Shown: piece by piece, positions 10,004-28,077 of the stretch
How positions within the stretch are numbered: position 1 is the first letter of the stretch
Layout: every line of letters begins with the position of its first letter
DNA from: Williamsia limnetica
GTDB taxonomy: Bacteria > Actinomycetota > Actinomycetes > Mycobacteriales > Mycobacteriaceae
Length of the DNA: 54,718 bases
NCBI RefSeq assembly: GCF_003217475.1
Contig: NZ_QJSP01000028.1
Coordinates: 1 to 54,718 of the forward strand
Reading direction: 5' to 3'
Made by a program: the position numbers and the translations under genes
The notes under the pieces: model-generated
Seen by the model: only the letters and a program-made list of their open reading frames with translations
Told to the model about the DNA's origin: nothing
The model's database searches: none

Positions 10004-10054
10004 CCGACAAATTGTTCCAGATGAACCTATGGACCAAGCAGTCGACGCACGCGT

Positions 10055-10315: not shown

Positions 10316-10325
10316 GCCCGTATAG

Positions 10326-10345
10326 TAATACCGGTATTTTAATAC
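10326..10345. promoter_or_regulatory. Palindromic operator candidate between XRE regulator and map
   Basis: The perfect 12-bp palindrome AATACCGGTATT lies at 10327-10338. TAATAC at 10326-10331 recurs at 10340-10345. This AT-rich site is the most distinctive element in the 48 bases between two divergent start codons, so it is a good candidate binding site for the XRE protein encoded beside it. Confidence 0.5.
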
Positions 10346-10363
10346 GCGCAAAGGAGTGTGGTC

Positions 10364-11131: not shown

Positions 11132-11172
11132 GGCGCCAGTCCCTACGAGCCGTTCTCATGAAAGGCCCCTTT

Positions 11173-12129: not shown

Positions 12130-12219
12130 TCCGGCTCTGACAGCAATCGCGCGATTCGTGCTGTGCCGGTGACACCGGGCCTGTAACTTCTCTTACACTT
12201 CAGCAGAGAGGGCAATCGC

Positions 12220-13428
12220 ATGGCGCGAGCGGCGAAACCGGCAGGCAGGCACAAGAAGTCAAAGTCGGTTCGCCGGCGGCAACGCGCGGGGGTTGCGACC
12301 GCGGCAGTGATGACAGCAGCGATGGGCGCAACAGTGACCCTCGGAGCGGCACCGGCGTCGGCGGTGGACGTGCTGACCTTCCGTGAATGCTCCGCCGGTA
12401 GCGGGGTGAAGACCAGTACGGTCGACTGCAAGGACAGCATTGCACCTCCGCTGATCGGCGTCCTCAGTCAACTCGGTGTCGACCTCCCGATCACCAGTAC
12501 CGCCGCTGCACGTGCGCCCATCATCATTCCGCCCCTGATCGTGCTCGGAGTCGAGATAACCCCGGAGATCGTCGTCGATCCGGGTTCGACCGCCAAGATC
12601 TCCGGTGTCGGTGTCGCGTATGCCAATTCGCAACTCGGAACGGGTCACGCCGAGGCAAACGCGTGGGGGTTCGTCAGTGCTGCGGTGGCGCTCAACGCCC
12701 TGGGTGGAGGAACGGCCACGGCTACATCTTTGCCGCTCGGTGTCACGATTGCGGCATCGGACTCCGGAACCTCCACGGCCTTCGCGATCGGTGGGATTGC
12801 CACCGCCATCGACGTCATCGGCGTCGCCCAGAACGTCAGTTGCCTGGGCTTGGTCACCTACGCCTCAGCATCAGACATCGGGAGCTGCGCCGGATTACTC
12901 TTCCTCTTCAGCGTCGAACAGGCGGCGGGTTCACCTGAATACGTATTCGCGATAGCCGATCCGACGTCACTGCAGATACTCAGCAACGACGGTGGGCTGA
13001 TTCCGCTGCCTATTCCGCAGTTCACTCGCGACCTCATACGCATCGGTGTCGGTGGTCCCGGGGGAGTCCGCATCGAGAGTGATCTGGTGCCGCCAACCGC
13101 GACGTCGACGCAGGTGTCCGCCAGAGTCGCTTCGGCGCCGGAGCCGAGCATCACCGCCGTCGCCGATGAGTCGGAGCCCGCTGCCGAACCCGAGCAGGCG
13201 TACGTAGGTAAGCATCGCGCGGTTGAGCCGGTTGAGCCGGTTGAGCCGGTCGCAGAGGTCGAAGAAGTGGAAGAAGAACCAGCCGAGGCGATCTGGACCG
13301 CACCGGAAGACGTCAAGGATGCGCCGCCTGAGTCCGAGCCGGCAGCTGGACCTGATGCGACCGTCACCGCCGAAGAAACCGACACCACGCCGTCGACACC
13401 GGCCTCGGCCGAACCGGCAGCTGACTGA
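12220..13428 (+). CDS. Secreted Ala/Gly/Val-rich protein with acidic Pro-Glu tail, unknown function
   Basis: A 402-residue protein, not recognised. A long basic leader (RHKKSKSVRRRQR) precedes a hydrophobic core and a signal-peptidase I-type site after APASA (about residue 48), so export is likely. The mature part (50-290) is rich in Ala, Val, Ile and Gly with four cysteines (in FRECSAG, VDCKD, NVSCLG and GSCAG) that could form two disulfides. Residues 300-402 are disordered, rich in Pro, Glu and Ala, and include three exact VEP repeats encoded by a 9-bp unit (GTTGAGCCG, 13222-13248). A GAGAGGG ribosome site precedes the ATG. It ends at a bidirectional hairpin shared with the IniR-like gene. 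A cell-wall-associated role is only a guess. Confidence 0.7.
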   Translation: MARAAKPAGRHKKSKSVRRRQRAGVATAAVMTAAMGATVTLGAAPASAVDVLTFRECSAGSGVKTSTVDCKDSIAPPLIGVLSQLGVDLPITSTAAARAPIIIPPLIVLGVEITPEIVVDPGSTAKISGVGVAYANSQLGTGHAEANAWGFVSAAVALNALGGGTATATSLPLGVTIAASDSGTSTAFAIGGIATAIDVIGVAQNVSCLGLVTYASASDIGSCAGLLFLFSVEQAAGSPEYVFAIADPTSLQILSNDGGLIPLPIPQFTRDLIRIGVGGPGGVRIESDLVPPTATSTQVSARVASAPEPSITAVADESEPAAEPEQAYVGKHRAVEPVEPVEPVAEVEEVEEEPAEAIWTAPEDVKDAPPESEPAAGPDATVTAEETDTTPSTPASAEPAAD

Positions 13429-13455
13429 CAGCAGCCAGCGAGCTCCCGCTCATGA

Positions 13456-13497
13456 AACTTGGTCCCGCTCGCTCTGTAGCGCGAGCGGGACCAAGTT
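13456..13497. terminator. Bidirectional hairpin between convergent genes
   Basis: A perfect 17-bp inverted repeat (arms 13456-13472 and 13481-13497, AACTTGGTCCCGCTCGC) with an 8-base loop sits between two convergent genes. A nested outer pair TCCCGCTC/GAGCGGGA (13444 and 13502) extends it. There is no T-run. Confidence 0.65.
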
Positions 13498-13543: not shown

Positions 13544-16081
13544 CTATTCCGGCCCGGCAGGCCCGTAACCGGCTGCGCGGAGCATCGACAACATCTCCGA
13601 CCGCGATCCGGCGCCGATCCTGCGCCGGATGCGGGCGACATGATGCTCGACCGTCTTGGCTGAGATGTACAGGTGTGCACCGATCTCGCGATAGGTGTGG
13701 CCGAGAAGCAGATGGCGGGCCACCTCGGCTTCTCGTTCGGAGAGCTGACCGGCGGACGCGGGCTTGTCGGGCGTCGGTGCATGGGCGGTCACGCCACCCC
13801 CAGATCCTCCGCCGACGAGACGCGCGACCTGGAGCAGAGTCGTCGCAGAGTGCGTGTCGTCGACCCGCAGCGCGGCTTCACTCGCCAACCGCGCTGCATC
13901 CCAGGGTAATCCGGCCTCATCCAGCTTGCGGGCAGCCGACTCGACCTCAATGACGTCGGGACTGCCCTGCATGACTCTCAGCCAAGCCCGGCCGGCGCCG
14001 GCGAGCGCGGCAGCGAAGGGGTCATCGTTCGCGGCCTCGCCGAGCATGCGGGCGTATGGAACCAGTGCGGCCGGATCGTCGGACAGGATCGCGGCCTGCA
14101 CCCCGTACCAACTCCACGACGTGGCCCACACCGGTGGCGACCCCAGTTCCGCGAGGAGGCGATCGGCGTCGTCGACCAAGTGTGTGACCCGTGCACCCTC
14201 ACCCAATCGGACTGCGGCAAGCCAGAGTTCACCGAGCGGTAGGAGGTTGAACAGGTCGGTCTCCATCTCTGCGACTACCGGTGCGGCATCCTTCCAAGCG
14301 TTGAGCAGGCCGCCGGCGTCACCGCGCCGCCGGGCTATCGCCACGGTGAGTGCGCGCGCCACCACTTGGTCCCGAAAATGCTGTGGTGCGCAGGACTTGA
14401 CGATGTCGGCGGCTCCATTGAGGTCGCCGCCGAGCATCACCGTCCAACCGAGCAGCAGCTTCTCTCGGATTGCGCCCGCGTTGGCGGATCGGCCGAGCGC
14501 GGAGCGGGCACCGACGAGGTCACCGCCGTGTAGCGAGAGCAGGGCTGCGATCGCTGTGGCCGACTCGGGCTCGGCCCGATCATGCGGGCGGGACAGCGAA
14601 GCGGACCGCAGCACGCTGCCGATCGCGGCTGCCCGGGAGGTGGTCAACGAGGTCACCAGTCCGGTGGACAGCAGTAAGGCCCGAGAGTTCTCGGTGGTCG
14701 GGGGCGCGCTGGCTGCTGCCGCGGTGAACTCGTCGGCACCTGCCCGGTCACCGGTGCCGAGAAACGCCAGGACTCCGAGTGGGGCGTCGGCGCCTGCTTG
14801 CTCGGGCCCGAGCCAGCGATAGAGAGCCGCGCATCTGGAGTAACTGCCACGTCGTGCGGCCACCGCCGACGCGATCCGGACGGCATCCCGCCGCGCGGCG
14901 GCGGAGCCGTCGGCCAGGGCGGTGTCGACCAGAGTGGTCGCGGTGTCGAGATCTCCGGCACGTACAGCGGCGTCGGCGAGCGGTAGATTCGCGACGTCGG
15001 GGTCGGCACCGGCGGCGAGTGCGGCGGTCCACAGGGTCACGGCGCGCGCCGCGGGGGCGGTGGCCGCGGCGTCCGAGAGCAATTGGGCGAGTGCAGGAGT
15101 GGTGATGCCCGCGTGCGCCGCGGTGATGGCGGTGTCCTCGCGCAGTACACCGTGGGCAAGCAGTACGTCCACCAATGCCCGATGGATGGAGGCCACGACG
15201 TGCTCGCCTCTGGCCACCCGCAGTCGCGGGGCCACGGAGGCGAGCAATGTGTCTGTGGCACTGAGAAATCCACTGCCGCGTGCTCGATCGAGAGCGCCGC
15301 ATGCGATGTCGTGGGCTATCCCGAGTGTTTCTGCGATCGTGTCCGGATCCGGCGCCGGGTGCAGGCCGGCGATGGTGAGCACGTCCAGGGTGGCCGGATC
15401 CAACTCCCGCAGACGCCGCTGCTGCCACAGTGAAATGGCCTCGCGGACCGGCACATCGGGCTCCACAGAATCGTCGGCGGCCGTCCGCGCCGCAGCCAGC
15501 GCGGCGTTCACAGCCGCCCGGACGCCACCGCTGTCGACGCGGATTGCTTCGGCGACCACCGGGGTGATCGTCCCACCGGCGCGGGCGAGGATGTCCGCGC
15601 GCGACAGGGGCGCCAGGGTGAAGGCGGAACCGGCTGCACCCAGCTCCCGGCGCAGCTCCCTGAGGGCGGGATCGTGGAAGCGTGGTTCGGACGCGACGAT
15701 CACGGTCGCTTGTGGGGACGTCGCGAGTGCCGCTATACGGCGCAGTGATTCGGCGTCCTGTGCGTGTGCGTCGTCGATGACGATCGCGGAACCCGGGTAA
15801 TCGTCGGGTGTCGACGACACGGGGGTCCCGGCTCGTTTCAGCGCCGATCGGCACGAGTCGAGTAGTTCGGTCTTCCCGCTACCGGACACCCCGGTCACAA
15901 AGGCGATCGTGGGCTTGCCGGCTTGGAGCCGCGACAGCAACACCTGTGGTGCCGGAGACGAAGCGGAGCGGAGCTCGACTCGTGATGCCGGAGAGGAAGC
16001 GGAGCGGAGCTCGACCTTTGATGCCGGAGACGAAGCGGAGCGGAGCTCGACCCTTGGATCAGGCATACCCGCAGTGGTCAC
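13544..16081 (-). CDS. STAND-ATPase / LuxR-type regulator, IniR-like (Rv0339c-like)
   Basis: An 845-residue signal-transduction ATPase. Residues 64-71 form Walker A (GVSGSGKT), residues 98-104 Walker B (SAIVIDDAHAQD), the middle is an alanine-rich helical repeat array of TPR-like character, and about residues 780-840 form a LuxR helix-turn-helix (LSEREAEVARHLLLGHTYRE, then HLYISAKTVEHHVARI). Length and plan match the large LAL/MalT-like regulators. The position beside iniBAC matches Rv0339c of M. tuberculosis and IniR of M. marinum, reported to activate iniBAC in response to trehalose. The GTG start overlaps the stop of the Hsp70-like gene (GTGA), so translation is coupled; ATG at 16066 is an alternative. 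The N-terminus contains three 12-residue repeats (VELRSASSPAS). Confidence 0.85.
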   Translation of the reverse strand: MTTAGMPDPRVELRSASSPASKVELRSASSPASRVELRSASSPAPQVLLSRLQAGKPTIAFVTGVSGSGKTELLDSCRSALKRAGTPVSSTPDDYPGSAIVIDDAHAQDAESLRRIAALATSPQATVIVASEPRFHDPALRELRRELGAAGSAFTLAPLSRADILARAGGTITPVVAEAIRVDSGGVRAAVNAALAAARTAADDSVEPDVPVREAISLWQQRRLRELDPATLDVLTIAGLHPAPDPDTIAETLGIAHDIACGALDRARGSGFLSATDTLLASVAPRLRVARGEHVVASIHRALVDVLLAHGVLREDTAITAAHAGITTPALAQLLSDAAATAPAARAVTLWTAALAAGADPDVANLPLADAAVRAGDLDTATTLVDTALADGSAAARRDAVRIASAVAARRGSYSRCAALYRWLGPEQAGADAPLGVLAFLGTGDRAGADEFTAAAASAPPTTENSRALLLSTGLVTSLTTSRAAAIGSVLRSASLSRPHDRAEPESATAIAALLSLHGGDLVGARSALGRSANAGAIREKLLLGWTVMLGGDLNGAADIVKSCAPQHFRDQVVARALTVAIARRRGDAGGLLNAWKDAAPVVAEMETDLFNLLPLGELWLAAVRLGEGARVTHLVDDADRLLAELGSPPVWATSWSWYGVQAAILSDDPAALVPYARMLGEAANDDPFAAALAGAGRAWLRVMQGSPDVIEVESAARKLDEAGLPWDAARLASEAALRVDDTHSATTLLQVARLVGGGSGGGVTAHAPTPDKPASAGQLSEREAEVARHLLLGHTYREIGAHLYISAKTVEHHVARIRRRIGAGSRSEMLSMLRAAGYGPAGPE
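15951..16058 (-). repeat. 3 x 36-bp in-frame tandem repeat at the regulator N-terminus
   Basis: The unit beginning GCCGGAGACGAAGCGGAGCG starts at 15951, 15987 and 16023, exactly 36 bases apart, with one or two changes per copy. It encodes VELRSASSPAS plus K or R. The repeat precedes the ATPase domain and could vary in copy number. Confidence 0.85.
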
Positions 16082-17835
16082 CCGAGGACGCCGCCGACCA
16101 GGCCTCCGACGCCGTCGCCGACTCCACCGACCACTCCTCCGACGCCGTCGCCGACTCCACCGACCACGCCTCCGACGCCGTCGCCGACGTCGGCCGGGGT
16201 ACCACCGACGCCCCCGCCGCCGGGAGATTCGCCGCCGGATGTGTCGCCGCCACCGGTGCCGCCACCCGAGGTGTCTCCGCCGCCCGAGGTATCACCACCG
16301 CCGGGTTGTGCCGGTGGGGGCGTGCCCGCGACCGGTGCATTGTCGGCGGGTGCGGTGCCGGTCTGACCGGCTACCGGAGGAGCCCCTGCGGCAGTGGTCG
16401 CCGTCGCACCCGAAGTGCCCCCGGAACCCGGTCGCCCAGGGGTTGAGGTGGATCCGGGGGTGCCGTCGGGGTTGCGTGCAGCAGATTTGCTGGGAGCACC
16501 CGCGGTGCTGGAAGGCGCCGATGAACTCTTCGCCGGGGCCGTGGATTCCGAGGAGCCGGCTGACGGCTTCTTGTCGTCGGTCAGTGCTGTGCCGACCGAC
16601 AGGCCGCCCGCGGTCAACAAAGCGATTGCGGCGGCGACTCCGACGACGACGGCGATCCGCTTGGGGCGCGACATCGTCTTGGGCTCTGCAGCAAGGGTTC
16701 TCGGCGCCGGGGTGATCGCCCGCGCGGCTGACGGGACCAGCTCGGCCGACGCGGCGGCGGGCGCCGCGGATGCGAGCTGCGCCTGCGCGGCAGCAGCTTT
16801 GGCCGCCGAAACACTCGCGGCTGCGATGGTCGCGGCGCCGGTTGCAGAGGTGATGGTGGGGTCTGCGTTGACGGCCACAGGTATCCGCAGGGTCGACGAC
16901 ACCAGCTCGCTGACCAACGGTGTCGCCGCACCGCCACCGATCAGCACGATGGTCGAAACCCCCGCCAGGTCGATCTCTGCGAGGTGGAGGGCTTCGCCGA
17001 TCAGCGACATCGACGAGGTCAGTGGTCCGCGCAGCAGTTCTTCGAGCTCCGAACGCACCAGGCGGGCCTCGGTGCGCAGACCGGGCAGGTCGATCGAAAC
17101 AACGGTTTCGGTGTCGACGGACAGAGCTTCGCGGGCAACCGCGCACCGGGTGCGCAGTTCGGTGAGTGCCGTGATCGTCGCGGGATCGAACGGGTCGATG
17201 GTGTCAGCGGCGCCGACGGACGCGAGGACGTGGCCCAGGACCAGATGGTCGAACTGCGAGCCGCTGACCTCTTCGGAACGCAGCGGTCGTCCGAGGATCC
17301 GGGAGCCGGGTCCTCCGGTGACGACCGCGACGTCGAGAGCGGAACCGCCCAGATCGTAGACAACCAGCGCGCCGTCCACCGGTCCGCGCCGCGACTCGAG
17401 TGCGGCGACGGCGGCGATGGCTTCGGGAACGATCGTGACCGGGGGTAGAGCCTGGTCATCGGCGGCGGATTCGAGAGCCTCGATGGCGTGCGGTTGCCAG
17501 TCGTTGGGGCAGGCGACGACGATCTGGTCTGCGTTCCAGCGGTCGACCTCGGCGGCCAGATGGCCCATGGCCGCGGCGTAGAGGTCCTGGCCGGTGTACT
17601 GCGTGCCGTCGTCGCCGAGGAGGGCGACGGGATCGCCGACGCGGTCGGCGAACCCGGTGATGCGATGCGGTCCGGCGGTGTCGGTCAGTCGGGGCTCGTG
17701 ATCGGGGGTGAGGTCGAGGTACGGACCGGCGACGACCACGTCACCGACGGGACCGGCCTCGTCCGCAGGCACTGCGACACAGGTGGTGCTCCCGATCTTC
17801 ACTCCGAGCGCTGTCCCCATCTTCGATGTGGCCAT
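16078..17835 (-). CDS. Membrane-anchored Hsp70-like (actin-fold ATPase) protein
   Basis: A 585-residue protein with an N-terminal Hsp70/actin ATPase domain: phosphate-1 GVKIGSTT (11-18), phosphate-2 YDLGGSALDVAVV (160-172) and adenosine motif LIGGGAATP (298-306). No substrate-binding domain or lid follows. Instead there is an Ala-rich linker, a single membrane helix (about 393-417, IAVVVGVAAAIALLTAGG) and a Ser/Thr/Pro/Gly-rich tail of about 165 residues ending in 11-residue repeats (GVGDGVGGVVG). The topology implies a cytosolic ATPase with an outward tail suited to contact the cell wall. It is first in a coupled operon with the IniR-like regulator and divergent from iniB, so a role as membrane sensor or partner of that regulator is inferred. 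Confidence 0.8.
   Translation of the reverse strand: MATSKMGTALGVKIGSTTCVAVPADEAGPVGDVVVAGPYLDLTPDHEPRLTDTAGPHRITGFADRVGDPVALLGDDGTQYTGQDLYAAAMGHLAAEVDRWNADQIVVACPNDWQPHAIEALESAADDQALPPVTIVPEAIAAVAALESRRGPVDGALVVYDLGGSALDVAVVTGGPGSRILGRPLRSEEVSGSQFDHLVLGHVLASVGAADTIDPFDPATITALTELRTRCAVAREALSVDTETVVSIDLPGLRTEARLVRSELEELLRGPLTSSMSLIGEALHLAEIDLAGVSTIVLIGGGAATPLVSELVSSTLRIPVAVNADPTITSATGAATIAAASVSAAKAAAAQAQLASAAPAAASAELVPSAARAITPAPRTLAAEPKTMSRPKRIAVVVGVAAAIALLTAGGLSVGTALTDDKKPSAGSSESTAPAKSSSAPSSTAGAPSKSAARNPDGTPGSTSTPGRPGSGGTSGATATTAAGAPPVAGQTGTAPADNAPVAGTPPPAQPGGGDTSGGGDTSGGGTGGGDTSGGESPGGGGVGGTPADVGDGVGGVVGGVGDGVGGVVGGVGDGVGGLVGGVLG
16100..16190 (-). repeat. 33-bp tandem repeat encoding the Gly/Val tail
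   Basis: The unit CCTCCGACGCCGTCGCCGAC recurs at 16103/16104, 16136 and 16169 with 33-bp spacing, encoding GVGDGVGGVVG-type repeats at the extreme C-terminus of the Hsp70-like protein. Together with the 36-bp array it flanks the overlap of the two genes. Confidence 0.75.
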
Positions 17836-18144
17836 GTCGACGACTCCCTCTGCTGCGAACGTTTGTATGCGTCGGCGTGTGCTGTGATGCCGTCTTCCAT
17901 TCTGTCGCCGCAGGTGAGGCCCGTGTTACCCATTCGGGGAATCACTCGAGAAGTAAGGGGTGATTCACCGATCCCCGATCATCGGATACCCCGGATCCCC
18001 TAATGCCCCGGCCCCGATTCCCCTATAGGGGGTTCGAAAAGCATGGGGCTCCAACCCGTTGGACGGAGGGCGAGGAGTTCGTAGCGTTGTTGTCACTCAC
18101 CGCGGATCCGATGCCTGGATCTGCCCCGGATACAGGAGATCCCC
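17836..18144. promoter_or_regulatory. Divergent ini promoter region with an array of GGGGA-type motifs
   Basis: This 309-base gap between the Hsp70-like gene and iniB has no reading frame of note. It holds a cluster of G4/C4 motifs: GGGGAATC at 17936 and GGGGTGAT at 17957 on the plus strand; on the minus strand GGGGATCG (ending 17973), GGGGTATC (17989), GGGGATCC (17997), GGGGCATT (18006), GGGGCCGG (18012) and GGGGAATC (18020). A 7-bp inverted repeat GAATCAC/GTGATTC spans 17939-17966 and a 12-bp palindrome CCCCTATAGGGG lies at 18020-18031. MalT, a regulator with the same STAND-LuxR plan, binds repeated GGGGATGA-like boxes, so these are candidate IniR-like sites. The iniB ribosome site ACAGGAG is at the end. 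Confidence 0.55.
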
Positions 18145-21138
18145 ATGGCCAGCAACGCAGTACTCGATTTCATCCTCGGGCTCCTCCGTGACGAGCAGGC
18201 AGCCTCGGCCTACTGCCTCAATCCGCAAGGCGCCCTCGACGCGGCAGGTCTGCCCGACCTGAGCCACGCCGACATCGTCGCCGCGGCTCCGCTCGTCGCC
18301 GACTCGGCATTGTTCGACGGCGGCTCCAGGCTGACCCAGATCGTCAACGCCGGAGGCGGCGCGGGAGTGGTCAACGTCGTCAATATCGGGAACATCGGCA
18401 ACATCGGGGCGATCGGTGGCGGGATCGCCGCGGGTGGCCTCAACTTCGGGAACGTCGACTTCGGTGATCTGGTCTTCGGTGGGATCGACTTCGGCAACCT
18501 CGAGTTCGGCAACTTCGGCGGCATCGACCTGGGCTCGATCGATCTCGGTTCCATCGATCTCGGAGCAATCGACCTCGGTTCCCTCGACCTGGGCGTCATC
18601 AACTTCGGCGACCTCGACTTCACAGCCCAGTTCGCAGCCATCCTCGCCGCGAGCTTGTCAGCGGCACTGACCGTCGGCGGCGAGCTCGCGGCCGGCTTCG
18701 GTGCGGTACTCGGCGGCGTCATCGAGGCGGCGCTCGAACTCGGCGGCGACCTCACCGGTGTACTCGACCTGGACGGCGTACTCGACATCGGCGCCACGGT
18801 CGCCGCGATCATCGGCGGCGGACTGGGTGTCACGGCGGGGCTGACCGGCCAGCTCGCCGCAGCCATCAACGCAGCGCTCGCTGCGGCGGGTGGCCTCGAC
18901 CTGGACGCGGTCCTCGGTGCGGGCGGGGCCATCTCTGCCGCGCTCTCCGGTGCGCTCGTGCTCGGCGGCGATCTCGCCGCGGCGGTCGGAGCCACGTTCG
19001 GTGCGGTGCTCGGCGCCGGTATCGGCGCGGGTGCCGACCTCGTGGGCGACCTCGCCGGCGCGTTGATCGCCGGAGTCGATGTCGGTGGCGCGATCGGTGC
19101 TGTCGTCGGAGGCGCAATCGGGGTCGGCGCAGATCTCGCAGGCGGCTTCGGCGCGACCCTGACCGGACTTCTCGGTGCCACGGGCGCGCTCGACGGAGCG
19201 CTCGCCGCAGTTCTCGACGCCGACGTCCTAGCAGGTCTCGTCGGTGGTCTGACCACGACGCTGCAGACCACCTTGGCCGGTGTCCTCGCGGCAGGCGGTC
19301 AGGTCGGTGCCGACCTCGGTCTGGCAGTCGGCGCACTACTCGGGGGTGCCGTCGACCTGGACGTCCTCGATCTCGACGCAATACTCGGTGCCGACGCGAC
19401 GATCGCTGCGTTGCTGGCAGGCGCGCTGGAACTCGGCGGTGGCGTCACCGCCGGATTGACCGGCGCTCTGACCGCGCTCATCGGTGCCGGTGGCGGCATC
19501 GACATCGACGGCGTCCTCGGCGCCGGCGGCGATCTGGGACTGGCGGTCGGCACGGTGCTGGCGGGTGCGCTCGAGGCGGGTGGCGACCTCGGCGGGTTGT
19601 TCGGTGTGGCGCTCGGTGGAGTCGTCGGTGGAGTACTGACCGGTGACCTCGCCGCACAGCTGACCGGCCTGCTGGCAGGGGACGTGGATCTCGGGCTCGC
19701 ACTGGGCACCGTGTTCGGCGGTGCACTCGATCTCGCCGGGGCGGCCGATCTCACTGCCGGCGTCACTGCTGCATTCGGTGGGGCACTCGCCGCAGCGCTC
19801 GGCGCCGGCGGGCTGCTCGACGTCGACGTGGCCGGTCTGCTGGCCGGAGGGCTGAGTGCTCAACTCGCCGCCGCGCTGGCGACCACGCTGGCTGCGGGCG
19901 GCGCCCTCGCCGGAGACTTCGGCGGATCGCTGAGCGCAGTACTGGCCGCGACCACCGAACTCGTTGCTGCCACTGATCTTTCCGGGTTGCTGAACCCGGA
20001 ACTCGGGCTGGGCCTGGCCACCGACCTGGTCGGCGCCCTAGGTGTCGGCGGGGTCCTGGATACCGATCTGGACCTCGCCGACATCCTCTCCGCAGGTGGC
20101 GACGTCGCGGCGGCCATCGGGGCCACCGTGGGAACGACCCTGGCAGGCGCTCTTTCGGGTGAGCTCGGTACACAGCTCCTGGGTGTCCTCGACGGCGGCA
20201 TCGATCTCGGGACGGGCCTCGGCGTCGTCCTCGAGAGCACGCTCGCCCTCGACGGCGGTCTGGCCGCCGGGCTCGGCACCCAGATCGGTGCCGCGCTCGC
20301 CGCCGGCGGTGTGGTCGCGGCCGACGTCACCGGCCTGCTCGAAACCGAGCTCGAGACCGGCCTCGACACCTCGCTCCTCGCGGCCGGCGCGCTGGCGGGC
20401 GGCGTCGGGGCCGTGGTGGACGGTGGTTTGGCAGGAACACTCGGTGCGGCAGGGGCATTGGCAACCGGACTGGACACCGCGGTGGACGGCGGTGTCGGCG
20501 GTGGACTCGCTGCGGCGGGCGTGGTTGCAGGCGGGCTCGAAACGGGTCTCGGCGCGGCGATCTCCACCGGAGGCGGAGTGATCGCAGGCGGCGACGTCGT
20601 GGCGGGCGGTTTGCTCGGCACCGCAGTGGACACCACAGCGGGCCTCGAGACCGGCATCGTCGGTTCCGTCACCGGCGGACTCGCAGGCACCGCGGGCGGT
20701 GAACTGGACCTCGGCGGACTCGGCCTTGGTGGTCCCGATGCCGCTGGTCTGGATGTCGCTGGCGTGGTCGGAGGAGGGGCAACCGCTGAACTCCAGGGCG
20801 CCCTGGACGACCTCGGTGCACCGGCCGCTGACGTCACCGGCGGATTCGCCGACCCGATCGCACCTGTTGCCGACACGGCCGGCGTGGTCACCGAAACCAC
20901 GGGGGGCCTGACGGGATCGTTGACCGAGACCACGACCGAGACCACGACCGGTGTCGCGGGCGGGAACGCCTGGTCGGACATCGATGCCGACAACACCTTT
21001 GGTTCCGGCGCCGACACAGGACTCGACACAGGTGGCCTCACCGGCAACCTCACCGGCGGTCTGCTGGGCGGCGCGGGAGTCGGTGGCGATACCGACGCCG
21101 GTGCGACGTCCACGGTGGATGGCGGTCTCGACGATTAG
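18145..21138 (+). CDS. iniB: IniB-like Gly/Ala-rich protein with pentapeptide-repeat segment
   Basis: A 997-residue protein, about twice the length of M. tuberculosis IniB. Residues 1-65 match the IniB N-terminal domain (VLDFILGLLRDEQAASAYC, then NPQGALDAAGLPDLSHADIV). Residues about 98-158 form a run of roughly twelve pentapeptide units (GNVDF, GDLVF, GGIDF, GNLEF, GSIDL, GAIDL, GSLDL, GVINF, GDLDF), the sequence pattern of a right-handed beta-helix. The remaining 800 residues are low-complexity Gly/Ala/Leu/Asp repeats such as GALxLGGDLAAxxGA, ending in a Thr/Glu-rich stretch. There is no signal peptide. iniB heads the isoniazid-induced envelope-stress operon in mycobacteria; its biochemical role is unknown. 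An AGGAG site precedes the ATG. Confidence 0.85.
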   Translation: MASNAVLDFILGLLRDEQAASAYCLNPQGALDAAGLPDLSHADIVAAAPLVADSALFDGGSRLTQIVNAGGGAGVVNVVNIGNIGNIGAIGGGIAAGGLNFGNVDFGDLVFGGIDFGNLEFGNFGGIDLGSIDLGSIDLGAIDLGSLDLGVINFGDLDFTAQFAAILAASLSAALTVGGELAAGFGAVLGGVIEAALELGGDLTGVLDLDGVLDIGATVAAIIGGGLGVTAGLTGQLAAAINAALAAAGGLDLDAVLGAGGAISAALSGALVLGGDLAAAVGATFGAVLGAGIGAGADLVGDLAGALIAGVDVGGAIGAVVGGAIGVGADLAGGFGATLTGLLGATGALDGALAAVLDADVLAGLVGGLTTTLQTTLAGVLAAGGQVGADLGLAVGALLGGAVDLDVLDLDAILGADATIAALLAGALELGGGVTAGLTGALTALIGAGGGIDIDGVLGAGGDLGLAVGTVLAGALEAGGDLGGLFGVALGGVVGGVLTGDLAAQLTGLLAGDVDLGLALGTVFGGALDLAGAADLTAGVTAAFGGALAAALGAGGLLDVDVAGLLAGGLSAQLAAALATTLAAGGALAGDFGGSLSAVLAATTELVAATDLSGLLNPELGLGLATDLVGALGVGGVLDTDLDLADILSAGGDVAAAIGATVGTTLAGALSGELGTQLLGVLDGGIDLGTGLGVVLESTLALDGGLAAGLGTQIGAALAAGGVVAADVTGLLETELETGLDTSLLAAGALAGGVGAVVDGGLAGTLGAAGALATGLDTAVDGGVGGGLAAAGVVAGGLETGLGAAISTGGGVIAGGDVVAGGLLGTAVDTTAGLETGIVGSVTGGLAGTAGGELDLGGLGLGGPDAAGLDVAGVVGGGATAELQGALDDLGAPAADVTGGFADPIAPVADTAGVVTETTGGLTGSLTETTTETTTGVAGGNAWSDIDADNTFGSGADTGLDTGGLTGNLTGGLLGGAGVGGDTDAGATSTVDGGLDD

Positions 21139-21146
21139 TCCCAAAT

Positions 21147-21231
21147 AGCCAGACAACTACTGACAGCCAGAAAACTACTGACAGCCAGAAAACTACTGAC
21201 AGCCAGACAACTACTGACAGCCAGACAACTA
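21147..21231 (+). repeat. 18-bp tandem repeat (about 4.7 copies) just after iniB
   Basis: The unit AGCCAGACAACTACTGAC starts at 21147, 21165, 21183, 21201 and 21219. Copies differ only by C/A at one position, and the last copy diverges after 13 bases. It lies eight bases after the iniB TAG and is markedly AT-richer than its surroundings. Read in the iniB frame past the stop it is open and would encode ARQLLT or ARKLLT repeats until a TAG at 21247. Confidence 0.95.
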
Positions 21232-21264
21232 GCAGTACGAGGGGTGTAGCTGTCGACGCTGTCA

Positions 21265-21323
21265 CGCCATCGGTCCCATGCGCAGTGCCTCATCGGCGAT
21301 ACTGTGGCTGGGACCGATTGGCG
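21265..21323 (+). promoter_or_regulatory. Long stem-loop in the iniB-iniA gap
   Basis: Arms ATCGGTCCCA (21269-21278) and TGGGACCGAT (21309-21318) pair perfectly and extend by CGCC/GGCG across one bulged base, giving a 14-bp stem with a 30-base loop; CAGT/ACTG can pair inside it. No T-run follows. It could act as a processing site, partial terminator or attenuator that sets the iniB to iniA ratio. Confidence 0.5.
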
Positions 21324-21391
21324 TGTACCCCGAGCCCGGCGGGTGCAGCCACATCGGGGTTGCTCTCGTTGACGAACAGGTCGGATGCCGG

Positions 21392-23251
21392 ATGAAAAGC
21401 GAAGTGGCCACTGCCGCGCCAACAACCACGGGTGAGCTCGGTGAGTTGCTCGGCCGGATGGGTGAGATCGCGGCTCGTTCTGGTCGACAGGATCTGGTGG
21501 CGCGTCTGGACGGTGCCCGCACGAAGGTCACCGACCCCAGGCTCAGGATCGTCGTCGTCGGACCCCTCAAGCAGGGCAAGAGCCAGTTCGTGAACTCGCT
21601 GCTCGGCATCGATGTCTGTTCGGTCGGTGATGACGAGACGACTGCCGTCCCGACCCTGGCCGCGTACGCCGACGAGGCGTCGGCGCACCTGGTTCTCGAT
21701 CGCCCCGGCTCCGAGCCCGAACGCGTGACGGTTCCGCTCGACCAGATCAACGCGATCACCCCGGATCATCCCCTCGCGGGAGGGTCCACCGTGTTGCGTC
21801 TGGAGGTGAACGTCCCGAGCCCGCTGCTGGCGGACGGTCTCGTCCTCGTCGACACGCCCGGTGTCGGAGGGCACGGGAACCCGCATGCGGCAAGCACTCT
21901 GGGACTCCTACCCGCAGCAGATGCGGTCTTCGTCGTCTCGGACGCCAGCCAGGAGTTCACCGAGCCCGAGGTGGCGTTCCTCAAACAGGTCGTGGGTTTG
22001 TGCCCGACGGTCGCGTGCCTGATCACCAAGACCGATCTGTATCCGCATTGGCGTGCCATCGTCGAGGCCGATCGGGCGCACCTGCGGCGTGAGGGCGTCG
22101 ACGTCCCGCTGCTCCCTGTGTCCTCGCTGCTGCGCTCGCATGCGTTGCGACTGAAGGACGATTCGCTCAATGCCGAAGCGGGCTTCGTCGAGGTGTACCA
22201 GTTCCTGCGCGATCGGGTGGTCGCACGAGCGGCCGAGTCGACGAAAGCCTCTGTGGCGCTGGATCTGCGCTCGGTCTCCGAGCACCTCGCGCTGACATTG
22301 GGCAGTGAGCTCGCAGCGCTTCGCAATCCGGAGAAGGCGGCCGCGGCGGTCGCTGAACTGCAACGGGCCAAGGCGACAGCCGACGAGATGAAGAAGCGCA
22401 CAGCGCTGTGGCAGCAGACCCTGTCCGACGGCATCACCGATCTCGCCGCCGACATCGACCACGACCTGCGAGACCGGCTGCGAGCCGTCACACGGGAAGC
22501 CGAGGACGCCGTCGATCAGGGCGACCCCGGGAAGGACTGGGCACAACTCGGTGAGTGGCTCGAGGATCAGATAGCAGTGGTCGTCGGCGACAACTTCGTC
22601 TGGGCACACGAACGCGCGATCTGGCTCTCGGAACGGATCGCCGAGCACTTCGCCGACTCGGCGCAAGCGCACCTGCCTGCGCTCGACATCACCGACATCG
22701 ACGGCGTCTTCGACACGGTGACCGAGCTGTCCGAACTCGAGTCGGGGCGCGTCGGGATCACCCAGAAAGTGCTGATCGGGATGCGGGGCTCCTACGGGGG
22801 TGTCCTCATGTTCGGACTCATCGGCACCTTCGCCGGTCTCGCCCTCATCAACCCGATCTCCGTCGGTGCCGGGCTGTTGCTGGGAACCAAGGCCTACAAG
22901 GACGACAAAGAAGCGCGGACGGTTGATCGGCGGCAAAAGGCGAAGGCCGCGATCCGCAAGTTCACCGACGACGTCAGCTTTCAGGTGGGCAAGGAATCCA
23001 AGGATCGGTTGCGACACGTCCACCGTGCGCTGCGCGATCACTTCACCGAGATCGCGGAGCAGTCCGCACGATCGATCGGTGACTCGCTGCAGGCCGCCCA
23101 GGAAGGTGCCGCTCTCGCGACGTCCGAGCAGCGGCAGCGGACCGCGCAGCTCGAAGGAGAACTCAAAGCGGTTGCGGCGCTGCGGAAGCTGGCGCTGCAG
23201 CTCGATTCGGCGGGTTCGCAGACCGCCGTGTCGCGGGCAGGGCAGTCGTGA
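21392..23251 (+). CDS. iniA: IniA, dynamin-like GTPase
   Basis: A protein of about 619 residues of the bacterial dynamin family. GTPase motifs are G1 GPLKQGKS (57-64), a DDETT switch region, G3 DTPGVGG (154-160) and G4 TKTD (212-215). A hydrophobic paddle-like hairpin (MRGSYGGVLMFGLIGTF, then INPISVGAGLLLG) precedes long C-terminal helices. M. tuberculosis IniA shares segments such as LGLLPEADAV and MRGSYGGV; mycobacterial IniA has been shown to bind and divide membranes. It acts on the inner face of the plasma membrane during envelope stress. The frame continues 38 codons upstream through a stem-loop; the ATG at 21392 is chosen because family similarity begins soon after. Its stop overlaps the iniC start. 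Confidence 0.92.
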   Translation: MKSEVATAAPTTTGELGELLGRMGEIAARSGRQDLVARLDGARTKVTDPRLRIVVVGPLKQGKSQFVNSLLGIDVCSVGDDETTAVPTLAAYADEASAHLVLDRPGSEPERVTVPLDQINAITPDHPLAGGSTVLRLEVNVPSPLLADGLVLVDTPGVGGHGNPHAASTLGLLPAADAVFVVSDASQEFTEPEVAFLKQVVGLCPTVACLITKTDLYPHWRAIVEADRAHLRREGVDVPLLPVSSLLRSHALRLKDDSLNAEAGFVEVYQFLRDRVVARAAESTKASVALDLRSVSEHLALTLGSELAALRNPEKAAAAVAELQRAKATADEMKKRTALWQQTLSDGITDLAADIDHDLRDRLRAVTREAEDAVDQGDPGKDWAQLGEWLEDQIAVVVGDNFVWAHERAIWLSERIAEHFADSAQAHLPALDITDIDGVFDTVTELSELESGRVGITQKVLIGMRGSYGGVLMFGLIGTFAGLALINPISVGAGLLLGTKAYKDDKEARTVDRRQKAKAAIRKFTDDVSFQVGKESKDRLRHVHRALRDHFTEIAEQSARSIGDSLQAAQEGAALATSEQRQRTAQLEGELKAVAALRKLALQLDSAGSQTAVSRAGQS

Positions 23252-24717
23252 CCCCGAGCACCCTCGACCGTGCCCGGGAACTGATCGACGCGACCGAAAC
23301 GCTGTGCGCGGGCGATCGCTGGGCCGCCGAGCGCCTTGCCGATTGTTCCCACCGCCTCGAGGAACCGCTGCGGATCGCCATCGCGGGATCGCTCAAGGCG
23401 GGTAAGTCGACCTTGCTCAATGCCATGGTCGGCCAAGACATCGCGCCGACCGACGCCACCGAGTGCACCCGCGTGGTGACCTGGTACCGGCGGGGGATCA
23501 ACCCGAAGGTGACCGCCCACTACGACGGCGACCGGTCGGCCGGCATCCCGGTGTTGCGCCGCAACGGCCACCTCACCTTCGACTTCGGGGAGCTCACCGC
23601 CGAACGGGTGGACCGCCTCGACGTGGAATGGCCGGCCCGCGCGCTGCGGACCACCACGATCATCGACACCCCTGGCACCGCGTCGCTCTCGCGCGATGTC
23701 TCCGCACTGACGGTCGACATGCTCACCCCGGATGACGCGGAGTCGGGCGCGGACGCGGTGGTCTATCTGTTGCGAACGCTGACCAATACGGACACCTCGT
23801 TCCTGGGTCGCCTCGGGGAGTCGATCGGCGGCGACTCGGGCCCGCTGGGGGTGATCGGCGTGGTGTCGCGGGCCGATGAGATCGGTGCCGGGCGGATGGA
23901 CGCGATGATGTCCGCGAAGCAGGTGGCGGCGCGGTTCGCCGCCGAACTCGAGCGCACCGGCCTGTGCCAGGCGGTGGTACCGGTCGCCGGACTGCTGGCC
24001 CTGGGAGCGCGAACCCTGCGGCAGGTGGAGTTCGTCGCCTTCGAGGCGCTGGCGGCGGTGTCGCCTGAGGACCTGCAACTGGCGATGTTGTCTGCGGACA
24101 GGTTCGTGCGGCCCGAAACCCAGCTACCGGTGGAGCCGCAATTGCGTGCCGAACTCCTCGATCGGTTCGGGATGTACGGGATCCGGCTGGCAGTCACCCT
24201 GATCCGGCTCGGTACCTCCGATTCGCCGACTCTCGCCACGGAACTCGTCGATCGCAGTGGTCTGACCGAGCTCCGGCAGATCATCGACGTCCAATTCGGG
24301 CAGCGGGCCGACCAATTGAAGTCGCACACGGCGTTGATCGCCCTCGACCGGATCCTGTCGCACTACGATTCGGCCGATACCGCGGCACTGCGACGCGCCA
24401 CCTCCCACCTGCTCGCCGACACCCACGGGTTCACCGAGCTCCGGTTGCTCGGCAGGTTGCGCGCCGAGGAGACCGCGTTGCCACCCGCAGAACGCGATGA
24501 ACTGCAACGGATCATCGGTGGGCAGGGGACCCAGCCCTGGGCTCGGCTCGGTCTCGCGCCCGACGATTCGATCGACTTGCACCGCACCACCGCCACGGAC
24601 GAGGTGCGACGCTGGCGCACCAGGGCGGCACATCCGTTGTTCGACCGGCCGACATCGGTGGCCTGCACCGTCGCCGCCCGGAGCGCAGAAGGCATTCTGG
24701 CGGAACTCGACTCATGA
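23248..24717 (+). CDS. iniC: IniC, dynamin-like GTPase
   Basis: A 489-residue partner of IniA. Motifs are G1 GSLKAGKS (47-54), a TRVVTWYRRG switch-like stretch, G3 IIDTPGTA and a G4-like SRADE. It is shorter than IniA and lacks an obvious hydrophobic paddle, consistent with known IniC proteins. Heteromeric pairing of two dynamin-like proteins encoded in tandem is common in bacteria and is likely here. The GTG start at 23248 overlaps the iniA stop (GTGA), and its own stop overlaps the start of the next gene (ATGA), so iniA, iniC and the fourth gene are translationally coupled. Confidence 0.92.
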   Translation: MTPSTLDRARELIDATETLCAGDRWAAERLADCSHRLEEPLRIAIAGSLKAGKSTLLNAMVGQDIAPTDATECTRVVTWYRRGINPKVTAHYDGDRSAGIPVLRRNGHLTFDFGELTAERVDRLDVEWPARALRTTTIIDTPGTASLSRDVSALTVDMLTPDDAESGADAVVYLLRTLTNTDTSFLGRLGESIGGDSGPLGVIGVVSRADEIGAGRMDAMMSAKQVAARFAAELERTGLCQAVVPVAGLLALGARTLRQVEFVAFEALAAVSPEDLQLAMLSADRFVRPETQLPVEPQLRAELLDRFGMYGIRLAVTLIRLGTSDSPTLATELVDRSGLTELRQIIDVQFGQRADQLKSHTALIALDRILSHYDSADTAALRRATSHLLADTHGFTELRLLGRLRAEETALPPAERDELQRIIGGQGTQPWARLGLAPDDSIDLHRTTATDEVRRWRTRAAHPLFDRPTSVACTVAARSAEGILAELDS

Positions 24718-25316
24718 GCAGACTGCGCTTCGACGGTGACATCTCCGGTATCGGTACCGCCGGCGGCACCCGAATCGTCATCGGTCACTGGCCGCACTCG
24801 CATCTCGGCGAGTTCGCGGACGCCATGGTCGAGTTCTCCGGCGGTGAGCGGCTCCTGATCGCGCCGAGTGAAGAGGTCCGCGACTTCGTCACCGCCACCT
24901 ACAATTTCGACCGCACGGTGATCGCCGAGGTCATCTACACGTCCGACGGTCCGCGGATTCACGTGGTCGCGGGCGAGTTGGAGGTGTCCCTTGAGGTCGG
25001 GTCACCGACGGTGCTGGGCCGGCTGCTGTCGATCATGCCCAGAGCTGTGGTCACGGCGCCGTGGTTCTGCGCGATCAGCGACCCCATCGCCCGCGTCTTC
25101 CTCCGTGGCGTCCGGACCCGGGGTACGGCAGGCGGTGGTAGACGCGAGTACTACGGTGCCCGTGGTCAGCGGCGCATCACCAGCGCGACGGCGACGTGGC
25201 AGGGCAAGGATCTCGGTGGGCTGACCCCGGTGGATCCACCGGTCAGGTTCGGCTTCGGTTCCACCCCGAAGGCCCCGTCGACGACCCTGATCACGACGAC
25301 GATCGACCAAGAATAG
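24714..25316 (+). CDS. Uncharacterised fourth gene of the ini operon
   Basis: A 200-residue soluble protein that I do not recognise. It has no signal peptide or membrane helix. The first 120 residues look like an alternating beta-rich domain (RIVIGHWPHSHLGEFADAM, RLLIAPSEEVRDFV, VIAEVIYTSDGPRIHVVAGE). The C-terminal third is basic (RGVRTRGT, GGGRREYYGARGQRR) and ends in a strand-like TTLITTTIDQE. The ATG overlaps the iniC stop by four bases, so it is part of the operon and probably made in proportion to IniC. A role with the dynamin-like proteins is inferred only from this coupling. It ends at a pair of hairpins facing a convergent gene. Confidence 0.75.
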   Translation: MSRLRFDGDISGIGTAGGTRIVIGHWPHSHLGEFADAMVEFSGGERLLIAPSEEVRDFVTATYNFDRTVIAEVIYTSDGPRIHVVAGELEVSLEVGSPTVLGRLLSIMPRAVVTAPWFCAISDPIARVFLRGVRTRGTAGGGRREYYGARGQRRITSATATWQGKDLGGLTPVDPPVRFGFGSTPKAPSTTLITTTIDQE

Positions 25317-25412: not shown

Positions 25413-25973
25413 TCAGCGCCGGGGCGGCGCTGCCTTGAGCCACGTGCCAACGGCGGGCGCATAGAGCAGAGCGGTCGCGATCAGCGCGCCGACGGCCGTC
25501 ACCAGGGGTAGCACGGACACCACCGGGCCGACGACATCTCTGGCGGGTTCGGCCACCAGCCAGAACTGGATGCCGGCGGCCACCGCGAGCAGTCCCACCA
25601 CGGTGAGCATCGTGCGGCCGGAGCTGATCCGGTCCCGCACCCGGATGATCCCGACCACCGCGAACGCCAGGATCACCAGCGCTGCGGCACCGTTGCCGAT
25701 CATGATTAGGTTCACCGTGTCGTCGACGTCGCTGCGACTGGTCGCGGGATGGTCGGCGGCGAGTGAGTCGCTGATCGCGCTGCGAACGGCCACGTGATTG
25801 AAGGCCTGCCAGATGGCCGCGAGCACCAATGCGGCCAATGCGACCAACCACGCCGTCATCGCGATGTCGACGATGCGAGGCCGCTCATCCGGGACTGGCT
25901 CATGGAGCGGGGCGATCCGGATCTCCGGCCTGCCCGGACGCGGGCGCGGTGGTGGCCGTCCGGGTTCGGTCAT
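25413..25973 (-). CDS. Four-helix membrane protein, unknown function
   Basis: A 186-residue protein with a proline/arginine-rich cytoplasmic N-terminus (PGRPPPRPRPGRP) and four hydrophobic helices: AMTAWLVALAALVLAAIW, IMIGNGAAALVILAFAVVG, MLTVVGLLAVAAGIQFW and LPLVTAVGALIATALLYA. Between helices 1 and 2 is a polar loop (AADHPATSRSDVDDTVN) that is probably outside. No family is recognised. It lies convergent to the ini operon and divergent from dnaK, and its promoter must overlap the upstream part of the HspR control region, so heat-shock influence on it is possible but unproven. Confidence 0.75.
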   Translation of the reverse strand: MTEPGRPPPRPRPGRPEIRIAPLHEPVPDERPRIVDIAMTAWLVALAALVLAAIWQAFNHVAVRSAISDSLAADHPATSRSDVDDTVNLIMIGNGAAALVILAFAVVGIIRVRDRISSGRTMLTVVGLLAVAAGIQFWLVAEPARDVVGPVVSVLPLVTAVGALIATALLYAPAVGTWLKAAPPRR

Positions 25974-26172: not shown

Positions 26173-26241
26173 CCAAAAGACTAGATCGTGAACACCCCGT
26201 GCTCCGCTTGCCGCGGATGCACTGCTTATAGGAGGCAACAA

Positions 26242-28077
26242 ATGGCTCGTGCTGTTGGAATCGACCTGGGCACCACCAACTCGGTGGTCGCAGTGCTCGA
26301 AGGTGGAGAACCCACCGTCATCGCCAACGCCGAGGGCGCCCGCACCACCCCGTCGGTGGTTGCTTTCGCCCGCAACGGCGAGGTTCTGGTCGGACAGCCG
26401 GCCAAGAACCAGGCTGTCACCAACGTCGACCGCACCATCCGTTCCGTCAAGCGCCACATGGGCGAAGAGTGGAACCAGTCGATCGACGACAAGAACTACA
26501 CGCCGCAGGAGATCAGCGCTCGTACGCTGATGAAGCTCAAGCGCGACGCCGAGAGCTACCTCGGTGACGAGGTCGTGGACGCGGTCATCACCGTGCCGGC
26601 CTACTTCAACGACGCCCAGCGTCAGGCGACCAAGGAAGCCGGCCAGATCGCCGGCCTCAACGTGCTCCGCATCGTCAACGAGCCCACCGCTGCCGCACTG
26701 GCATACGGCCTGGACAAGGGCGAGAAGGAACAGACCATTCTGGTCTTCGACCTCGGTGGCGGCACGTTCGACGTGTCCCTGCTCGAGATCGGCGACGGCG
26801 TCGTCGAGGTCCGTGCGACCTCCGGCGACAACAACCTCGGTGGCGACGACTGGGATCAGCGCGTCGTCGACTGGCTGGTGGAGAAGTTCAAGGCGCAGAA
26901 CGGCATCGACCTGACCAAGGACAAGATGGCCTTGCAGCGTCTGCGTGAGGCCGCGGAGAAGGCGAAGATCGAACTGTCCTCGGGACAGAGCACCTCGATC
27001 AACCTGCCGTACATCACGGTCGACGCAGAGAAGAACCCGCTGTTCCTCGATGAGCAGTTGAGCCGCAGCGAGTTCCAGAAGATCACCAACGATCTGCTCG
27101 AGCGCACCCGTGCGCCGTTCCAGGCCGTGGTCAAGGACGCAGGCATCGCTGTCGGCGACATCGACCACGTCGTACTCGTCGGTGGATCGACCCGTATGCC
27201 CGCAGTGAGCGAACTGGTCAAGGAGCTCACCGGTGGACAGGACCCCAACCGCGGTGTGAACCCCGATGAGGTCGTCGCCGTGGGCGCCGCACTGCAGGCC
27301 GGTGTGCTGCGCGGTGAGGTCAAGGACGTGCTGCTGCTCGACGTGACCCCGCTGAGCCTCGGCATCGAGACCAAGGGTGGCGTGATGCACAAGCTCATCG
27401 AGCGCAACACCACCATCCCGACCAAGCGGTCCGAGACCTACACCACGGCAGAGGACAACCAGCCGTCGGTGCAGATCCAGGTCTATCAGGGTGAGCGTGA
27501 GATCGCTTCGCACAACAAGCTGCTCGGATCGTTCGAGCTCGCCGGCATCGCTCCTGCGCCCCAGGGCGTCCCGCAGATCGAGGTGACCTTCGACATCGAC
27601 GCCAACGGCATCGTGCACGTCACCGCGAAGGACAAGGGCACCGGCAAAGAGAACACCATCCGGATCCAGGACGGCTCGGGCCTGTCGAAGGACGAGATCG
27701 ACCGCATGATCAAGGATGCCGAAGCACACGCCGACGAGGATCGTCAGCGCCGTGAAGAGGCCGAGACCCGCAACCAGGCGGAGTCGCTGGTGAACCAGAC
27801 CGAGAAGTTCCTCAAGGACTCCGACGACAAGGTTCCCGCCGAACTCAAGACCAAGGTCGAGGGCTCGATCGAGGGTGTTCGCGAAGCGCTCAAGGGCACC
27901 GATCTCGGTGCCGTGAAGTCGGCGGTCGAGAAGCTGACCACCGACTCGCAGGAGCTTGGTCAGGCGATCTACGCCAACGCTGGCGCCGAAGAGGGTGCAG
28001 CGACGCCCGGCGGAGCCGACGACGTCGTCGACGCCGAGGTCGTCGACGAAGGTGCCGACACCGAGGACAAGAAGTGA
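26242..28077 (+). CDS. dnaK: Molecular chaperone DnaK (Hsp70)
   Basis: A 611-residue Hsp70 with all expected parts: phosphate-1 [13 protein letters not shown], the [10 protein letters not shown] segment, phosphate-2 [12 protein letters not shown], adenosine motif [12 protein letters not shown], the interdomain linker [17 protein letters not shown], the substrate-binding domain and a C-terminal tail ending in [11 protein letters not shown]. It binds hydrophobic segments of unfolded proteins in an ATP cycle driven by DnaJ and GrpE. Length is slightly below the 625 residues of M. tuberculosis DnaK. A strong AGGAGG site (26230-26235) sets the ATG. HAIR boxes upstream indicate control by HspR. The stop overlaps the grpE start (GTGA). 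Confidence 0.98.

Follow-up and report, generated by a model that had tools for sequence, protein, structure and literature searches.

Near-constant pairing of an Hsp70-like protein with the IniR-type regulator of iniBAC, and its most likely role as a regulatory partner

What does an Hsp70-like protein do beside the regulator of an envelope-stress operon? The question is raised by a 54,718-nucleotide stretch of Williamsia limnetica (contig NZ_QJSP01000028.1; hereafter the window, with coordinates counted from its first letter), in which the gene for an IniR-type regulator adjoins iniB-, iniA- and iniC-like genes and is preceded by a gene for an Hsp70-related protein that we call H. In mycobacteria IniR activates iniBAC, binds upstream of it by chromatin immunoprecipitation (ChIP), acts only on iniBAC and is functional in both M. 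tuberculosis and M. marinum, and the activation is triggered by cell-wall inhibitors or by trehalose (Boot et al. 2017, PMC5760070, in the parts of that paper examined). Within the literature searched on iniR or iniBAC together with Hsp70, the pairing appears only in one sentence of that paper, which places a dnaK-like gene with iniR for M. smegmatis alone; earlier studies of the iniBAC promoter could contain further mentions. That sentence corrects an earlier sequence-only reading of the window, which had known of no description of the pairing. We find that H is a near-constant partner of IniR in the family of the window's organism and most likely its regulatory partner, which suggests that H helps the cell judge envelope damage. 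The genes concerned are as follows.

13544..16081, minus strand: IniR-type STAND/LuxR regulator, 845 aa (NF038181 reg_ATPase_IniR, 531.7 bits)
16078..17835, minus strand: H, Hsp70 nucleotide-binding-domain-like protein with one predicted membrane helix and a Gly/Ser/Thr/Pro tail, 585 aa (PF00012)
18145..21138, plus strand: iniB-like gene, 997 aa, with the IniB N-terminal domain (NF038175 IniB_NTERM, 68 bits, cut-off 40)
21278..23251, plus strand: iniA-like dynamin-family GTPase (profile match to solved IniA 6j72)
23248..24717, plus strand: iniC-like dynamin-family GTPase directly after iniA (PF00350, 42.5 bits, cut-off 27, E 9.3e-11)
24714..25316, plus strand: fourth gene, 200 aa (open reading frame after iniC)

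The sequence-only reading had set the regulator and H opposite iniB-iniA-iniC and a fourth gene, and all six lie in that arrangement at the stated coordinates. The GTGA overlap it had reported between H and the regulator is seen at 16078-16081, where the H stop meets the iniR start, and 4-base overlaps join iniA to iniC and iniC to the fourth gene, again as it had said. Its assignment of an IniR-type regulator with iniBAC as target is supported.

Co-inheritance was followed in 201 genomes, the window's own plus 200 drawn from the family, searched with the IniR model, a 47-row H alignment and a 9-row IniA alignment. Genomes were scored IniR-positive on a match of at least 180 bits or, for G090, on two pieces beyond the helix-turn-helix, which gave 105 of the 201; G133, whose match is a fragment of 120 bits where its contig ends, and G084, at 58 bits, were counted as lacking IniR. 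At an H limit of E ≤ 1e-100, picked after the table had been seen, 98 genomes have both proteins, 95 have neither, 7 have IniR only and 1 has H only. Four of the seven (G091, G098, G132 and G185) are truncated by the end of a contig, the H match of G011 is weak, and in G031 and G085 a weaker H-type gene follows iniC; the single H-only genome, G014, is 66% complete. IniA at E ≤ 1e-200 accompanies IniR in 104 genomes, with one genome having IniR only (G031) and one IniA only (G133). Within the mixed genus groups g9, g10, g22, g23 and g27, H follows IniR save in the contig-cut G091, G098 and G185. We give these results as counts with no p-value because related genomes are non-independent samples.

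Adjacency was scored in 106 loci, comprising 105 IniR loci from 104 genomes plus the window, of which 99 have at least 800 bases upstream of iniR or an adjacent H; the remainder (L058, L062, L064, L088, L096, L102 and L142) are too short upstream of iniR. By a strict test (same strand, with a possible iniR start codon -61 to +32 bases from the H stop), H immediately precedes iniR in 95 of the 99, and in 97 when L050, whose H frame ends early, and L063 are added by eye; in L045 and L139 H is not upstream of iniR. The 4-base overlap of H and iniR, by first start codon found, recurs in 20 of the 95 adjacent loci. With iniA as bait, in a set made of the best 80 of 514 stretches, many from genomes already in the family sample, 66 of the 80 loci reach iniR, and H is present in all 66 and strictly adjacent in 64, L186 and L200 failing the test through frame limits. 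An order-level sample of 200 genomes has IniR in 61, of which 43 lie outside the family; 18 of the 43 non-family IniR loci were taken (L224-L240 and L261), and among the 17 loci L224-L240 H stands beside iniR in 16, as judged by eye, with H scores of 80-235 bits. The sequence-only reading had asked whether H is absent or unlinked in related genomes; the pairing held both in the family and in other families.

H is recognizable as an Hsp70-family protein by its PF00012 match (75.8 bits against a gathering threshold of 20.6, residues 76-340), and a profile built from 42 rows (the window plus 41 relatives) matches DnaK 2v7y at E 1.6e-38 over positions 1-343. Its parts are:

16816..17835, minus strand: nucleotide-binding domain, residues 1-340 (Pfam and profile alignment)
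16600..16656, minus strand: predicted membrane helix, residues 394-412 (hydropathy 2.43 over 19 residues)
16081..16599, minus strand: low-complexity tail, residues 413-585, ending in GDGVGG-type repeats (composition)

We did not see a substrate-binding domain in H, insofar as the Pfam match ends at residue 340 and is followed by the helix from residue 394 and the low-complexity tail. The tail of the window's H comprises 173 residues, 76% of them P/G/S/T/A, and the family's tails range from 58 to 83%. A hydrophobic stretch reaching at least 1.6 after residue 300 occurs in 94 of 95 family H proteins, the exception, L082, being a fragment, and the basic SRPKR that precedes the helix in the window suggests that the N-terminus lies inside. 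The partners from other families are built differently: in 10 of 16 no stretch reaches 1.6, and in an eleventh, L235, the sole hydrophobic stretch lies within the nucleotide-binding domain. The conserved core of H is therefore the cytoplasmic domain adjoining iniR, and the anchor, the tail and the loss of an active-site Asp described below belong to the window's family. Sensing of the wall through the outer part, which the sequence-only reading had suggested for H, can therefore not be its central function in all families. Many H C-termini (L049-L143) end in GxGVGGVVGGVG..LLG-type repeats that by eye, and unscored, resemble the Gly-rich repeats of IniB.

Residues of the nucleotide site were compared in an alignment of 93 H proteins, leaving out L082 and L104, with columns numbered by the window's own DnaK. 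The phosphate-1 Asp (D8 in DnaK) is Asp in only 1 of the 93 family H proteins and is Lys in the window's. All 93 retain the phosphate-2 Asp (170) and both glycines of the pair at 314 and 315; at position 147, Glu in DnaK, 71 have Glu and 20 have Asp. For the catalytic Lys of the DnaK K70 region placement was by motif, since the profile aligns this loop loosely and the alignment shows mostly gaps where DnaK has its Lys; no Lys follows the RVGDPV-type motif in 87 of 95 H proteins, the other 8 being not readable. Among the partners from other families, 13 of the 15 readable ones keep the phosphate-1 Asp. In Hsc70 and DnaK, the loss of such residues slows or stops ATP hydrolysis. From these residues, family H proteins probably bind ATP but hardly hydrolyse it, so that of the earlier description of H as an actin-fold ATPase with one membrane helix, the fold and the helix stand and the word ATPase is doubtful.

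Several further arrangements of H genes were seen. Locus L094 has two tandem H genes upstream of iniR (9766-13491). In L039-L042 and L242, of genus group g29, which we take to be Mycobacterium, an H gene stands on either side of iniR, and the downstream copies form a clade of their own. Also in g29, H-type genes stand beside Fe-S and aminotransferase genes in L244 and L248, whose genomes have no match to IniR or IniA, and L246 joins them by tree position; L244 has two in tandem.

A number of observations weigh against a tie specifically between H and IniR. Relaxing the H limit to 1e-60 changes the counts to 100 genomes with both, 90 with neither, 5 with IniR only and 6 with H only, and the five added H-only genomes are g29 genomes that lack both IniR and IniA and keep H-type genes (E 1e-80 to 1e-88), which also counts against the sequence-only reading as written. 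In G069 and G136 an H-type gene stands beside Fe-S and aminotransferase genes with no IniR, and one H-type gene of G124 groups with these two by tree. Fe-S and aminotransferase genes also flank iniR in M. tuberculosis, so that in G069 and G136 H apparently survived the loss of iniR. In other families, L239 has iniR alone, with neither iniBAC nor H, and L261 has iniR and iniBAC with H not found. The dnaK-like gene is in print for M. smegmatis alone though IniR works in other mycobacteria. H follows iniC in place of preceding iniR in G085 and G366, and in G031 the gene order is R-A-C-H, so H could belong with the effectors. Finally, in protein distances over 78 loci H correlates with IniC at r 0.92 and with IniR at 0.81, the partial H-IniR correlation being 0.23, and this comparison does not favour a special IniR-H tie.

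These points make an effector role for H a serious rival, in which H would be a membrane-anchored chaperone-like or scaffold protein working with IniB, IniA and IniC on the damaged membrane and tied to the regulator by co-inheritance only. We regard this as possible, if on the unlikely side. It would account for the H-type genes found after iniC (L045, L047, L243, L259, L260 and G031) and for H distances tracking IniC best, and the Gly/Val repeats of the H tail might associate with the Gly/Ala/Val/Leu-rich IniB, a likeness that was not scored. It sits poorly with the position of H, which immediately precedes iniR on the same strand in 95 of 99 loci, overlaps it by 4 bases in 20 and, where the locus reaches that far, stands opposite iniBAC as read by eye; it also sits poorly with a linkage that persists in other families, most of whose H proteins show no membrane helix.

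A folding role is quite improbable. H would then be an ordinary DnaK-type chaperone that folds or stabilizes the large regulator, as its clear match to the Hsp70 nucleotide-binding domain and the nearby dnaK itself (about 26.2-28.1 kb) might suggest. Against this stand the end of the Pfam match at residue 340 with no substrate-binding domain seen, the absence of the phosphate-1 Asp in 92 of 93, and the lack of a motif-placed catalytic Lys in the 87 readable proteins. In a tree of 93 rows the family H proteins moreover form their own clade (100/100), which includes neither DnaK nor the other families' partners. A recent copying of H from the neighbouring dnaK was considered and is not supported, the DnaK rows standing on a branch of 2.09. 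Under midpoint rooting the DnaK rows fall with the partners of other families, beside the H of G031 (97/74), so that the H genes as a whole may or may not be a single family distinct from DnaK. That H merely hitch-hikes in a stable locus with no functional tie, as it might since the whole R-H/B-A-C block is stable and order alone could persist, is more improbable still, given that in the five mixed genus groups genomes without IniR have no H either, and that H remains the neighbour of iniR throughout the order.

The regulator bears on the reading of H as its regulatory partner through the fate of its own nucleotide site. The window's regulator covers profile positions 16-823 of 827 in NF038181, including the NTPase, the middle region and the LuxR helix-turn-helix, but at 531.7 bits it lies under the curated cut-off of 750, which only 9 of the 201 family genomes pass, all of them in g29; we therefore call it IniR-type and do not file it as that equivalog. 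It is a STAND protein in having a P-loop NTPase with both Walker motifs. A sequence search of solved structures gave no more than a weak STAND match (6mfv, E 0.0029); both the MalT-like sensor and the cleft of H were judged from sequence alone. The Walker A, Walker B and LuxR motifs that the sequence-only reading had named are present:

~15869-15892, minus strand: Walker A, GVSGSGKT, residues 64-71 (read in sequence)
minus strand: Walker B, AIVIDDAH (read in sequence)
~13583-13747, minus strand: LuxR/GerE helix-turn-helix, residues 779-833 (PF00196, E 6.9e-12)
15951..16050, minus strand: three 36-bp repeat copies in the 5' end of the regulator gene (repeat search of the genome)

Regulator residues ~11-44 consist of three in-frame copies of a 36-bp tandem repeat (core GCCGGAGACGAAGCGGAGCGGAGCTCGA) that is dispersed in the genome, at 24 places with at most 3 mismatches against none for the backward control, and the exact regulator start is therefore unsure.

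The Walker A Lys is absent in 37 of the 106 aligned IniR loci, or 36 once L142, which is cut by its contig, is set aside. It is changed to Arg or Thr, or the motif is eroded, or the P-loop lobe is missing, as in 18 rows with proteins of ~503-719 residues. Outside the family the Lys is kept in 17 of 18 IniR proteins, the exception being L226. In a quick tree built from the C-terminal region of IniR (109 rows, leaving out L142 and L143), the Lys changes 9 times, 8 of them forced by well supported branches; the changes are most simply losses, with regain possible. Among the 36 uncut loci lacking the Lys, H adjoins iniR in 35 (in L104 with a weak H match), and in the remaining one, L139 of genome G031, the H gene follows iniC. 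H is thus retained more faithfully than the ATPase site of IniR itself. Two tandem IniR-type frames were observed in L087, L091 and L096 (g22), and those genomes have a second, more distant iniA match elsewhere.

The region between H and iniB holds tandem ATCCCCTAAYG boxes that are likely the operator of IniR.

17997..18002, plus strand: operator-like box 1, core CCCCTA of GATCCCCTAATG at 17994-18005 (conserved motif)
18020..18025, plus strand: operator-like box 2, core CCCCTA (conserved motif)
18059..18087, plus strand: putative iniB promoter, -35 TTGGAC 18059-18064, spacer 17, -10 TAGCGT 18082-18087 (column conservation)

Directly after box 2, TAGGGG at 18026-18031 is the box on the opposite strand. 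In 60 non-redundant H-iniB regions, which leave out L138 as well as L082 and L104, CCCCTA pointing toward iniB occurs in 57 (100 dinucleotide shuffles: mean 5.6, largest 12) and at least twice in 47 (shuffles: mean 0.21, largest 2), with a spacing of 18 bases commonest and then 15 and 9. Among 16 such regions from other families, 14 contain the core. TCCCCTA-N8..25-TCCCCTA occurs once in the 6.35-Mb genome (17996-18025), and as the backward control gives 1 and 1, the count is uninformative and only its place is telling; this single place fits the published restriction of IniR action to iniBAC (PMC5760070). With at most 1 mismatch, GATCCCCTAATG has 9 genome matches against 3 in controls, and its one exact match is in the window. 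The examined parts of Boot et al. give no IniR binding motif (PMC5760070).

Downstream of the boxes, GGGG and a TAGCGT-like -10 are conserved. Anchoring succeeded in 52 of the 60 regions, in which the -10-like columns are conserved at 48-77%. Since CC[CG][GC]TT or CCC[GC][AT]T served as the anchor, conservation on the -35 side is partly by construction, and some regions, such as L040, L053 and L081, are visibly mis-anchored. A sigma-70 consensus scan found no promoter.

Taken with the likely regulatory partnership, these features can be put together, at somewhat less than even confidence, as a two-part switch of the iniBAC operon in which H restrains IniR until damage occurs. H, an actin-fold relative of the Hsp70 nucleotide-binding domain that would be membrane-anchored in the family with that domain inside, would contact IniR in the unstressed cell and keep it inactive at the membrane, as MalK does MalT. 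Envelope damage would then alter H or IniR, whether by way of the nucleotide level, through trehalose or by a change in the outer tail. Freed IniR would bind the tandem ATCCCCTAAYG boxes that precede the iniB promoter and activate iniB, the dynamin genes iniA and iniC and, in the window, the fourth gene. That H restrains IniR and does not help it is our conjecture from the MalK comparison. A narrower version, in which H and not the IniR P-loop is the nucleotide switch, holding ATP with little or no turnover and gating a STAND-derived activator, we consider unlikely. Of the sequence-only reading as a whole, the near-constant partnership of H with IniR and the iniBAC target survive, and sensing by the outer tail as the core job of H in every family does not.

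The locus can be set beside several known systems. It resembles mycobacterial IniR-iniBAC in having an IniR-type regulator adjoining an iniB-iniA-iniC envelope-stress operon and, as in M. smegmatis, a dnaK-like gene with iniR; it differs in that the window's H lies upstream of iniR and overlaps it, the dnaK-like gene not being studied by Boot et al. in the parts examined (PMC5760070), and in that the window's regulator falls under the NCBIfam IniR cut-off. In BCG, suppressing the drug-induced rise in ATP suppresses iniBAC induction, and the authors proposed the ATPase of IniR itself as the sensor (PMC6104191); another regulator, HpoR, was placed in 2026 at a palindrome in the BCG iniBAC promoter (PMC13413693). 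IniR resembles MalT in domain make-up (PMC5760070), and in E. coli MalK anchors MalT at the membrane in the absence of transport (PMC10427625). Both pairs would combine a STAND-type activator bearing a C-terminal DNA-binding domain with a membrane-bound nucleotide-binding partner. They differ in that H is an actin-fold protein whereas MalK is an ABC ATPase, and in that MalT depends on its P-loop, which is missing from many relatives of IniR. MalT boxes are tandem promoter sites, a further likeness to the boxes found here. Compared with Hsp70 and DnaK, H has the phosphate-2 Asp, the adenosine-loop Gly pair and the profile match over positions 1-343, but lacks the substrate-binding domain, the phosphate-1 Asp and the motif-placed catalytic Lys, and has a membrane helix and tail instead.

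The remaining genes of the window are briefly described. A profile from 9 IniA rows matches solved IniA 6j72 at E 2.3e-276; by our own reading, the window's iniA could alternatively start at 21392 (MKSEV...) instead of 21278. Pfam and NCBIfam scans of the fourth gene gave no match. It is present in 8 of the 9 genomes of the window's genus group and was not found in the remaining loci among the 106 searched, some of which end before that point. Beyond it lie a small gene (25413-25973) and dnaK (26188-28077). One record met in the searches, NZ_JNYV01000013.1 (L148), is titled Kitasatospora arboriphila and has an iniA 82-83% like that of Williamsia muralis; it is probably mislabelled or contaminated.

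The new elements are the tandem boxes, the active-site losses of H in the family, and the repeated loss of the IniR Walker A with H kept. The iniBAC operon is a standard reporter for cell-wall drugs, and H gives a concrete candidate for how IniR senses damage. The natural loss of the P-loop in IniR suggests that its own ATPase is dispensable for persistence of the module, and the conserved boxes provide a testable operator candidate.

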